DNA from: Frigoriflavimonas asaccharolytica
Lineage (GTDB): Bacteria > Bacteroidota > Bacteroidia > Flavobacteriales > Weeksellaceae
DNA length: 64,000 bases
Reading direction: 5' to 3'
NCBI RefSeq assembly: GCF_013294015.1
Contig: NZ_JABSNO010000009.1
Coordinates: 1 to 64,000 of the forward strand
The position numbers were made by a program, and so were the translations under genes. Below, one piece after another: positions 29,133 through 41,308 of this stretch. Under the pieces are notes generated by a model. It was not told the DNA's origin, made no database searches, and saw only the letters and a list, made by a program, of their open reading frames with translations. Every line of letters starts with the position of its first letter. The stretch's first letter is position 1.

Positions 29133-29163
29133 TTTTGAGGATTATAAAATTTCCTTACATTTG
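29133..29163 (+). promoter_or_regulatory. Promoter of the tRNA gene
   Basis: TTTTG (29133-29137), 18 nt, then TACATTTG (29156-29163): a full match to the Bacteroidota primary sigma consensus. Transcription would start about 30 nt before the tRNA. Confidence 0.75.
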
Positions 29164-37880: not shown

Positions 37881-37904
37881 AAGGAAACCTCAATCGGTTT
37901 CCTT
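37881..37904 (-). terminator. Terminator that overlaps the end of the TPR gene
   Basis: Nine-base-pair stem AAGGAAACC / GGTTTCCTT with a 6-nt loop and seven T after it on the minus strand. The stop codon of the TPR gene lies in the loop and the last three sense codons form one arm. Confidence 0.85.
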
Positions 37905-38405
37905 CGTCTTCTTTTTAGATTTTTTCTTTATAATTTTAGATTTAACAAATTTTTTTCGCTCTTTGATGTGTTCCAAACTACAAGAATTGAAGCAATATTT
38001 TTTCGCTTTTTCTAAAAAATGTATCGCGTTGATGAAATTCCCTCTCTTTTCTGAAAGATAAGAGCGCAAAATCCAAATTACAGATTGGTCTATTCCTTTT
38101 ATTTTTGAGGAATAATTAATTAATTTTTCTGCCTCTTCAAAATCTTCATTATTGATCAAACAATTGATGTAAAACTCTGGCGTGTTGATATTTGCGACAT
38201 CATGCATCATTGCTTCGGCGAAATATTTTTTCGCGGTTTCATAATCTTTCAATATTTCAGAATGGATTCTCGCCATCAAACACAAAGCATCTGCATCTTC
38301 CGGATCGTAGGAAAGTGCGTAGTTTAAGGCTTCCAAGCATTCTGGTAAATTGTACGGAAAGCAATCTAAAGCTTCAAAGTAATATTTATTTTTAGTTAAG
38401 TTCAT
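37890..38405 (-). CDS. TPR-repeat protein
   Basis: A 171-residue protein with about three TPR-like helical hairpins: residues 18-50 (CLEALNYALSYDPEDADALC), 52-85 (DYETAKKYFAEAMMHDVANI) and 90-145. A very basic lysine tail (KKKSKKKTKETD) follows and might contact nucleic acid. It overlaps the end of prfH by 14 nt, which indicates co-translation. A partner role for PrfH/RtcB is a guess from the layout. Confidence 0.75.
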   Translation of the reverse strand: MNLTKNKYYFEALDCFPYNLPECLEALNYALSYDPEDADALCLMARIHSEILKDYETAKKYFAEAMMHDVANINTPEFYINCLINNEDFEEAEKLINYSSKIKGIDQSVIWILRSYLSEKRGNFINAIHFLEKAKKYCFNSCSLEHIKERKKFVKSKIIKKKSKKKTKETD

Positions 38406-39090
38406 TTTGTTCTTTTTTTAGTTCATTTTTCAGTCTGCCTCTTTTTGTTTTAAAGGTTTTATCGGCAGTACTTTTTTTGAAATCATTGCCAGAGAAAGTT
38501 CTCACAGGATTTCCACGCTCTATTTCTATTTGATTTTTCCACGTTTCTTGCATTTGATTTTCTATTTTTTTTAAATCTAATTCCAAAACTTTTTCTTTTA
38601 ATCTTGCGATAGAAATTTTCTTATTTTCCAATTGCGAACGCGTGTCTTGCACAAAAACCGAAATTTTGGTAGGCAAATGTGTAGCACGAACTGCGGTGCT
38701 TACTTTATTCACGTTTTGTCCGCCACTTCCTTGGCTTCTGGTGGTTTGAAATTGAATATCCTTTTCGTTAAATTCTATTTTCATTACATTTTCCAGTTCA
38801 AAAACCCCGATAAACCAATTGCTTCTTTTGTGCAATTTTCGGAAGGTGCTTTTGCCAATCCAGCAGATGCTTCCAATCCATGTTTTCAGAAATTGTTCTG
38901 CATTTTTGCCTTTCAAAAGTAAGCTTGCGGATTTTAAAGTTAAATTTTCATCGCCCGTTTCTCTGTGGATGATTTCGTATTCTATTTTGTTTTCTGTAGC
39001 TTCTTCTAGGAAAACCTTCAGCACTTTTGCCACTACAAATTGGCATTCCAAAGGTCCTCTTCCAGAAGAAATCTGTATTATTTTGTCCAT
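38392..39090 (-). CDS. prfH: Peptide chain release factor H-like protein
   Basis: A 232-residue class I release factor homologue without the usual stop-codon recognition domain. A short N-terminal domain (SSGRGPLECQF) precedes the GGQ domain with GSGGQNVNKV (GGQ at 123-125), then VFVQDTRSQLENKKISIARL, and a basic tail. This is the PrfH family, often encoded beside RtcB. Enteric RtcB2-PrfH pairs are reported to rescue ribosomes with a cut 16S decoding centre: PrfH frees the nascent chain and RtcB re-ligates the rRNA. Here rtcB lies 309 nt upstream on the same strand. Confidence 0.9.
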   Translation of the reverse strand: MDKIIQISSGRGPLECQFVVAKVLKVFLEEATENKIEYEIIHRETGDENLTLKSASLLLKGKNAEQFLKTWIGSICWIGKSTFRKLHKRSNWFIGVFELENVMKIEFNEKDIQFQTTRSQGSGGQNVNKVSTAVRATHLPTKISVFVQDTRSQLENKKISIARLKEKVLELDLKKIENQMQETWKNQIEIERGNPVRTFSGNDFKKSTADKTFKTKRGRLKNELKKEQNELN

Positions 39091-39399: not shown

Positions 39400-40794
39400 T
39401 CATTTCCCTTTCATCCTCACAATTCTCGGTTGAAAAGTTCCCAGAATATCTACCGATTCGCTTTGGGCATTCATCACTTCGTTGATGTTTTTATAAGCCA
39501 TTGGTGCTTCTTCCGTACTTCCACCAAGCAAGGTGATTTTTTTTAATTTCAACTCCTTTTTGATGTCGTTTTGCGTAAATAAATTTTTGCAAGCTCCTCT
39601 AGAATGTTGTCTTCCAGCACCATGAGAAGCAGAATGTAGAGAATCTGGATTTCCTTTTCCACGTACGATAAAACCTTTTGCCGTCATTGAGCCAGGAATA
39701 ATGCCCAGTTCGTTTTCGTTTGCTGGTGTTGCTCCTTTTCGATGAACGATCACTTCTTTTCCGTTGTGAATTTCTTTCCACGCAAAATTGTGGTGATTTT
39801 CTATTCTAGCTTTCACTCTTCCGCCAACTGCTTTCAGCAATCTGCGGTGAATATCGTCATGACAAGCCGATGCATAATCTCCGGCAAGCGTCATTGCGGT
39901 CCAATATTCCAAACCAAGATGCGAGTCTAGAGAAAGCCAGGCAAAATTTTGCGCTTCCTTTGGTAATGGACATTGCTCTGCTGCAACTCTTGAATAATAT
40001 TGCGCAATTTCTGCTCCAAAACCACGAGATCCGCTGTGCGAAAGTATACCCAAATATTTGCCTTTTGGTAAATCAATTTGTGCTTCTTCTTCCGTGATTT
40101 CTACTTCTCCAAATTCCACAAAATGATTTCCGCCACCAGAAGTTCCCATTTGTTTGTGGGCTTTTCCTTTCATTCTTTTTAGAATGGGGATTAAATCAAA
40201 GGTGTCTCTCTCGAAAATTTCATTGTCGATGTGAGTTTTATGCACTTCGTTCATTCCAAATTTGGTGTGTTCTGCCAAGGCTTTTTCGTATTTGTCTTTT
40301 GCGCCATCTAGGTAAGAAATTGGCGTATCCAAAATGCTTAAACTCATTCTGCAACCGATGTCCATTCCAACTGCATACGGAATTACCACATTTTCTACCG
40401 CCAAAACGCCGCCAATCGGCAATCCGTAACCGAGATGTGCATCTGGCATTAATGCGCCTTGCACAGAAATTGGTAATTTCAAACCGGTGTACAGTTGGTT
40501 TTTGGTTTCGTCTGAAATATTGTTTCCGAATATTTGAAACGGAACTCTATTTTGTAACAGCATTCTTTTTTCTGTTTTATTTGAGGTTAAAAGTGCTTCT
40601 GCAATCTGACCAAAAGTGAGGTCGTCTGCAAAATTTTGAGGTTCGTGTAGTATGTTTTTTAATAGTGTTTTCACGTGATGTATATTTTTTGTCGCGAAGT
40701 TTCTCTTCATAACTTCTAATGCGATATTGATGCTTTGATTGTTTGGAAATCCCAGTTTTAAAAGGTCTTTTCCTTTGAGTTTTAAAGTTCCCAT
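39400..40794 (-). CDS. rtcB: RtcB-type RNA ligase
   Basis: A 464-residue GTP/Mn-dependent RNA ligase that joins 2',3'-cyclic phosphate (3'-phosphate) and 5'-OH ends. Metal and catalytic residues are seen in PDAHLGYGLPIGG (D118, H120), GMDIGCRMS (C148), SGGGNHFVEFG, and the guanylated histidine, about H391, in SASHGAGRQHS. Length and N-terminal region fit the PrfH-linked RtcB2 subgroup. Upstream there is a degenerate heptamer array up to the start codon, then a 300-nt spacer and a separate small transcription unit. Confidence 0.94.
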   Translation of the reverse strand: MGTLKLKGKDLLKLGFPNNQSINIALEVMKRNFATKNIHHVKTLLKNILHEPQNFADDLTFGQIAEALLTSNKTEKRMLLQNRVPFQIFGNNISDETKNQLYTGLKLPISVQGALMPDAHLGYGLPIGGVLAVENVVIPYAVGMDIGCRMSLSILDTPISYLDGAKDKYEKALAEHTKFGMNEVHKTHIDNEIFERDTFDLIPILKRMKGKAHKQMGTSGGGNHFVEFGEVEITEEEAQIDLPKGKYLGILSHSGSRGFGAEIAQYYSRVAAEQCPLPKEAQNFAWLSLDSHLGLEYWTAMTLAGDYASACHDDIHRRLLKAVGGRVKARIENHHNFAWKEIHNGKEVIVHRKGATPANENELGIIPGSMTAKGFIVRGKGNPDSLHSASHGAGRQHSRGACKNLFTQNDIKKELKLKKITLLGGSTEEAPMAYKNINEVMNAQSESVDILGTFQPRIVRMKGK

Positions 40795-40850: not shown

Positions 40851-41106
40851 TTTTCAATTCGTGTGTTGAATTTATTGTTCAAAAAAATCTATTCTTTTTA
40901 GTTGTTGAATTGGTTGATAGTTTTGTAGGCGGAAATACTTTTCTAGCCCCGATAGAAGTGGAAATCCTTTTTTTGCATTTGAAAAAAAGATTGCAACGGA
41001 TAGCGGGAATTAGCTCCAAATCAAATATTTTTTGTAAAATTTTGAAATGGAAACGGTTTTCCTTTAAAAAGAAATCGGGAAATTTTGTGGTGTGAAATTT
41101 ATCCAA
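40851..41106. other. Spacer between small unit and rtcB
   Basis: Two open frames of 75-82 codons overlap on opposite strands. The minus one begins with TTG, both have atypical compositions and neither shows recognisable similarity. I see no promoter box for rtcB that is clearly better than the one of the small unit at 41279-41308. Confidence 0.4.
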
Positions 41107-41110
41107 AGAA

Positions 41111-41138
41111 AAACCCGAAATCTTGCGACTTCGGGTTT
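41111..41138 (-). terminator. Terminator or attenuator of the small unit
   Basis: Nine-base-pair stem AAACCCGAA / TTCGGGTTT followed on the minus strand by TTTTTCTTT. It lies 21 nt past the stop of the 25-codon ORF. Confidence 0.8.
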
Positions 41139-41159
41139 GTATATTTCAAAATTGTTGTA

Positions 41160-41237
41160 TTAAGAATGTACCATACCACGAAGCTGCACCACCAAAAGTG
41201 GCAATCCTACTGCTGAATGCTGTGTAAATTTGAACAT
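41160..41237 (-). CDS. Candidate 25-residue leader peptide
   Basis: ATG to TAA on the minus strand, inside the small unit. It encodes a 25-residue peptide that begins MFKFTQHSAVGLPLL and ends RGMVHS, rich in Val and Leu, with a possible stalling part in the middle. It lies 35 nt after the predicted transcription start. There is no Shine-Dalgarno sequence, which is normal in this phylum. The ORF overlaps the pairing element, so ribosome movement would change the fold. Whether it is translated is not known. Confidence 0.45.
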   Translation of the reverse strand: MFKFTQHSAVGLPLLVVQLRGMVHS

Positions 41238-41278
41238 GGCTTCGTTGTTTTTTAATTGTTAGACTTAATTTTCAGGTG

Positions 41279-41308
41279 CAAATATAGGATTATTTTTGAA
41301 ACTGCAAA
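41279..41308 (-). promoter_or_regulatory. Promoter of the small unit
   Basis: On the minus strand TTTG (41305-41308), 18 nt, TATATTTG (41279-41286): a full consensus match, with the same spacing as the tRNA promoter in this window. Confidence 0.8.

Follow-up and report, generated by a model that had tools for sequence, protein, structure and literature searches.

On the minus strand of the window (the whole 64,000-nt stretch of DNA analysed), a short region with its own promoter, ORF and terminator precedes genes for an RtcB-family RNA ligase, peptide chain release factor H and a TPR-repeat protein. The features are as follows, each with the evidence for it.

41279-41308, minus strand: Bacteroidota-type promoter of the leader, TTTG-N18-TATATTTG (sequence; TANNTTTG upstream of the ATG in homologs)
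41239-41245, minus strand: S1, ACGAAGC, which lies just before the ATG and forms the 5' side of P1, the early hairpin (S1:S2 coevolution)
41160-41237, minus strand: leader ORF of 25 codons, MFKFTQHSAVGLPLLVVQLRGMVHS, with its ATG at 41237 (24-28 codons in 109 of 110 homologs)
41185-41216 (approximate), minus strand: P2, a hairpin within the ORF with the core TGCCAC..GTGGTG (38 of 38 representatives)
41178-41184, minus strand: S2, GCTTCGT, codons 18-20, partner of S1 (in P1) or of S3 (in the antiterminator)
41170-41184, minus strand: antiterminator, 5' arm, consisting of S2 and the next codons (S2-S3 fold)
41128-41144, minus strand: 3' arm of the antiterminator, an extended S3 that overlaps the 5' arm of the terminator (S2:S3 coevolution, pair counts)
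41111-41138, minus strand: intrinsic terminator S3:S4 with a GCAA loop and a T-rich tail beyond (folding z -5.59; coevolution)
40941-41014, plus strand (antisense): Flavo-1 RNA (RF01705, 78 bits), in the gap between leader and rtcB
39400-40794, minus strand: rtcB-family RNA ligase gene, first cistron after the leader (Pfam PF01139, 267 bits)
38392-39090, minus strand: prfH, peptide chain release factor H (NCBIfam TIGR03072, 214 bits vs. a cut-off of 167)
37890-38405, minus strand: TPR-repeat protein gene, the usual third cistron (Pfam TPR_19; third gene conserved in homologs)

Against TIGR03073, the RtcB family linked to PrfH, the window rtcB product scores 145 bits, short of the curated cut-off of 272, so its role is assigned by position and by the Pfam RtcB match. 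PrfH releases colicin-E3-damaged ribosomes and RtcB2 reseals the 16S rRNA (PMC9223846).

The TTTG of the promoter occupies 41308-41305 and is followed, after N18, by TATATTTG at 41286-41279; this is the sole exact match to TTTG-N18-TATATTTG in the window. An earlier note, made from the sequence of this stretch alone, had likened the layout to that of a tRNA promoter, and the tRNA-Met promoter at 29134-29163 does share it with one mismatch. The 7-bp element that the same note saw bracketing the 25-codon ORF lies at 41245-41239 (ACGAAGC) and 41184-41178 (GCTTCGT), and this layout is kept in 110 homologs. The hairpin and T-run were also correctly placed: the terminator (41138-41111) has 12 bp, a GCAA (GNRA) loop and a folding energy of -17.5 kcal/mol, and none of 200 shuffled sequences was equally stable (z -5.59). 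The distance of about 306 nt from the T-run to the start of rtcB (40794) likewise agrees. In the window itself the ACGAAGC/GCTTCGT hairpin is unexceptional (z -0.96, window copy only) and becomes convincing through the homologs, the P2 copy alone folds no better than chance (z -0.2) and the S2-S3 segment reaches -12.9 kcal/mol (z -2.69).

A DNA search of 59 genomes recovered eight full-length relatives besides the window copy, all with 25 codons. Seven of these are followed by the rtcB-prfH-TPR operon and one by just the TPR gene; the upstream genes differ. A covariance model yielded 211 matches across 320 genomes of the family. PrfH is present in 210 of the 320, and once model and PrfH lists had been compared, four chance matches removed and PrfH genomes without a convincing match inspected, the leader was found in 210 of 210 PrfH genomes; in six further genomes the leader occurs although prfH is not intact, and 104 lack both. 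For most of the 210 genomes this figure records co-occurrence within the genome, adjacency to rtcB having been established by tblastn for 103 of the 110 parsed leader copies (rtcB ≤3.5 kb downstream; upstream genes vary). The element described earlier as an orphan is thus tied to the operon behind it. Among the six leader genomes lacking an intact prfH, four keep rtcB, in one the TPR gene is all that remains and the last has none of these genes left; in L035 the TPR gene still stands behind the leader though rtcB and prfH are lost. Five weak model matches, all in prfH-bearing genomes, proved to be located at rtcB. Other weak matches (G007, G290, G306, G255:C95, L192 and L194-L197) lie away from rtcB and were rejected as leaders, judged by genomic context for G255 and G007 and by sequence for the rest.

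A second model, applied to 349 genomes of another family of the order (f3), gave 28 matches; about 23 of these are real, and most have rtcB downstream. The leader is carried by L220 (Chryseobacterium sp. E1), L206 (a Flavobacteriaceae MAG) and, weakly, L205 (uncultured Bizionia), so the two leader-bearing families are probably Weeksellaceae and Flavobacteriaceae.

The promoter is widely kept, with TANNTTTG found ≤80 nt upstream of the ATG (mostly at 37-48 nt) in 98 of 110 homologs against 3.1 expected. The gap between leader and rtcB varies from 87 to 1344 nt in homologs and is not enriched in the promoter motif: TANNTTTG occurs in three of 71 gaps where 8.1 were expected, and rtcB expression therefore seems to depend on read-through of the terminator. 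The 306-nt gap in the window is for the same reasons no objection to a leader function, given also that PA5471.1 of Pseudomonas aeruginosa lies ~250 bp upstream of its target PA5471.

The one exception to the ORF length of 24-28 codons among the 110 copies is L092, with 19. In 90 of the 110 the stop codon lies 21 nt past the start of CTTCG. The ATG and S2 are a whole number of codons apart in all copies but a group of five, and even these retain the ORF end; between stop and S3, every phase occurs. The ORF is presumably translated, because its frame is conserved. The 19-codon ORFs (L092, G063 and G016) end directly before S2, so that a ribosome terminating there would cover S2, just as it would with the usual 21-nt spacing. 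Codons 2-3 (window 41234-41229), which have no known pairing partner, read TTCAAA or TTCAGA after the ATG and are conserved at the nucleotide level in close relatives, with almost no synonymous change.

S2 (GCTTCG) is complementary to S1 (CGAAGC) and also to S3, the 5' arm of the terminator. The antiterminator S2:S3 and the terminator S3:S4 are mutually exclusive, since they have strand S3 in common. Both stems pointed out by the earlier note, P1 and the terminator, are real, but it missed the third and decisive helix, the antiterminator formed by 41184-41170 with 41144-41128. In homologs this helix spans 10-14 bp, with a mean energy of -13.4 kcal/mol and a mean z of -2.7 (72 distinct copies). 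RNAalifold recovers only a six-pair core from the antiterminator alignment because the extension shifts register between lineages; we therefore compared cognate with non-cognate duplexes and counted pairs in a named structure.

The first test set cognate against shuffled partner duplexes in 38 non-redundant copies, with 2000 permutations and shared ancestry uncorrected. Coevolution was found for P1 (S1:S2, z -7.6), for the antiterminator (z -5.8, or -5.2 when the CTTCG/CGAAG core is left out) and for the terminator (z -6.3), each with 0 of 2000 permutations as extreme, whereas two control segments gave z values of 0.0 and -0.2. All three helices covary, among them both stems in which the earlier note had proposed to look for compensatory changes. 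In the second test, on 22 distant copies and a named structure with shared ancestry again uncorrected, 93.5% of the antiterminator cells were paired vs. 87.2% after shuffling (0 of 500 shuffles), and 16 cells were altered on both sides vs. 4.2 (0 of 500). Sliding the partner by one column lowered the pairing to 58% or 48%. P2 was found in 38 of 38 representatives, with unrelated sequences.

These results bear on the suggestion that the element is a free-standing sRNA, its terminated transcript of about 170 nt acting in trans and its site before rtcB being incidental. Such a reading draws on the element's own promoter and strong terminator and on its persistence without rtcB-prfH behind it in three genomes (G152, G655 and G786). 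It would leave unexplained why every PrfH genome of the family carries the leader and why the competing S1:S2 and S2:S3 helices coevolve, and comparison with Rfam, which the earlier note had also proposed, was fruitless: no sRNA or other family matched the leader at the gathering threshold (best 21.9 bits, E 0.41). As a main function this is very unlikely, though the terminated transcript may have a by-product role in trans.

The ORF could alternatively be the functional part, as a gene for a 25-aa peptide or a sequence-specific arrest peptide, with RNA structure secondary. It is retained in 110 copies, Met-Phe and Leu-Arg recur in its product, and dN/dS in codons 4-11 is 0.66, a mild constraint. 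Those same codons nevertheless vary widely, and the 19-codon ORFs of L092 and G063 have none of the C-terminal residues. In most copies Leu-Arg is followed by a GGN, GCN or GAY codon, matching an S3 of ACC-CGAAG, GCC-CGAAG or AGTC-CGAAG, respectively, and S4 follows; the residue there (Gly, Ala or Asp) tracks the pairing of S3 and S4, i.e., the RNA. We regard a peptide function of this kind as highly improbable, and the leader peptide is probably not the sensor. Neither of the free-standing alternatives raised earlier, sRNA or peptide gene, is thus supported as the main function.

The reading that we prefer is a cis-acting attenuator. With high confidence we take the leader to be a translation-responsive attenuator of rtcB-prfH, and very probably, judging from sequence and modelling, it is a translation-monitoring transcription attenuator of the whole rtcB-prfH-TPR operon that is switched on at early stalling. 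The parts, their conservation, synteny and coevolution were computed and the occlusion logic was modelled; the inducer we infer. RNA polymerase would begin at the TTTG-N18-TATATTTG promoter, and P1 would be the first helix to form (mean probability 0.98 in the thermodynamic model with the RNA out only to S2). With no ribosome loaded, S2 would stay locked in P1, the terminator would form and the operon would be off. A ribosome that reaches the end of the ORF would have the same effect, because its footprint would cover S2 both on the approach to the stop codon and on the stop codon itself. A ribosome held in about the first 14 codons would instead keep S1 off S2; S2 would then pair with S3 before S4 has been transcribed, and transcription would continue into rtcB-prfH.

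Occlusion was modelled thermodynamically with a crude 30-nt ribosome footprint and the RNA out to S3. The predicted antiterminator probability is 0.98 with the ribosome at codons 1-5, the helix stays dominant to about codon 14, and the probability is ~0.05 or less at codons 17-25. Early stalling is, on this modelling, a likely route to the on state. At equilibrium, with no ribosome and with S3 fully transcribed, the model favours the antiterminator (mean 0.81), so that the off state of an untranslated leader depends on P1 forming first. Moreover, the window terminator is more stable than the antiterminator (-17.5 vs. -12.9 kcal/mol), and the switch must therefore work kinetically, as energy alone cannot decide the outcome.

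Any cause of early stalling would suffice as a signal. We lean towards ribosome damage or inhibition as the natural one: slow, antibiotic-blocked or decoding-centre-damaged ribosomes would be the inducer, and RtcB and PrfH would be made when needed. A ribosome stalled by damage to its decoding centre would be a signal in keeping with the function of the operon. The earlier suggestion of a ribosome-sensing leader for a repair operon is strongly supported by comparison: by synteny, by three covarying helices, by the frame-preserved ORF and by a parallel in P. aeruginosa.

There, armZ (PA5471) is RtcB-like and co-transcribed with prfH (PA5470), and PA5471.1, a 13-codon leader ~250 bp upstream of PA5471, has been proposed to act by transcription attenuation (PMC3516279, PMC12057347, PMC13041342). 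Its complete translation leads to a 3:4 terminator, while stalling or an amber codon at position 3 turns armZ on; induction is by ribosome-targeting antibiotics, and deletion of the leader region also turns the gene on (PMC3516279, PMC12057347, PMC13041342). The better-known role of ArmZ is that of MexZ anti-repressor (PMC3516279, PMC12057347, PMC13041342). Both systems place a leader ORF a few hundred bp before an operon of an RtcB-like gene and prfH, with full translation giving the off state and stalling or an early stop the on state (as predicted for the leader studied here). They differ in phylum and in ORF length (13 codons vs. 24-28 here, 19 in one lineage), and the likeness is one of logic. 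Deletion of the P. aeruginosa leader turns expression on, whereas an untranslated Flavobacteriales leader is predicted by the model to be off. Given the difference in ORF length, we classify the two as working alike and not as homologs: by analogy, the Flavobacteriales leader would control an operon of the same class in the manner of PA5471.1.

The toiL uORF of topAI-yjhQ in Escherichia coli, at whose start codon tetracycline stalls ribosomes, is likewise short and responsive to ribosome inhibition of several kinds, but it acts by translational repression and Rho-dependent termination and its target is a toxin-antitoxin pair (PMC12121999). The trp and his leaders share the four-strand logic of mutually exclusive hairpins and a leader ORF, and the classical 1-2-3-4 arrangement might suggest an amino-acid-sensing attenuator here as well. 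A run of control codons is absent from this leader ORF, however, its early codons vary by lineage, the rtcB-prfH operon is not biosynthetic, and the Rfam trp model scores 19.8 bits against a cut-off of 41; amino-acid sensing is accordingly improbable in the extreme. Our literature search found no description of the present leader, and none of the switching of an rtcB2-prfH operon beyond P. aeruginosa, where it was studied for drug efflux. The portions of a Flavobacterium psychrophilum transcriptome paper available to us describe leader-peptide attenuators for amino-acid operons and name no rtcB leader.

Other prfH operons of the Bacteroidota carry ORF-terminator leaders of different sequence that appear to follow the same logic. 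A second type before rtcB-prfH (L161, L165, L168 and L169; family f27) has an ORF of 15-17 codons and TGGTCGGG, complementary to the terminator arm CCCGATCA. The leader of Fulvivirga (L207) has GACCGGG with CCCGGTC, and in Chitinophaga, Mucilaginibacter and Edaphocola-like genomes (L210, L212, L213 and L164) a short ORF (e.g., MTERIHISPLSPAA) is accompanied by a hairpin spanning the stop codon. Each of these types is represented by one to four loci, and only the CGAAG/CTTCG type, in Weeksellaceae-like and Flavobacteriaceae-like genomes, is well tested. Whether ribosome-monitoring attenuators of unrelated sequence (CGAAG/CTTCG, TGGTCGGG/CCCGATCA and GACCGGG/CCCGGTC) came to control rtcB-prfH on several separate occasions in the Bacteroidota we consider evenly balanced. 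If so, then together with PA5471.1, sensing of ribosome integrity through translation of a leader ORF would be the general route to induction of these repair genes.

A conserved attenuator in another phylum would mean that the rtcB-prfH operon monitors translation itself, and it suggests that the PA5471.1 leader may have first evolved for ribosome repair and not for efflux. Ribosome inhibitors and rRNA-cleaving toxins are the predicted inducers of the operon, and the leader would be a ready reporter for ribosome damage.

The interval between leader and rtcB has contents of its own. Flavo-1 RNA lies in this gap in the window and in three relatives (L002, L004 and L005), on the opposite strand and separate from the leader; it is absent from most other relatives checked and so looks like an independent insertion outside the leader. 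In L118, L124, L198 and similar loci an extra conserved gene of ~254 aa (start e.g., ENSRLRSLRTRKRLIKEAFEKYIRQ) stands between leader and rtcB/prfH. In the Flavobacteriaceae-like L199, L201 and L202, a gene of ~450-470 aa separates leader and rtcB, and in L202 it comes after the leader although rtcB is gone.
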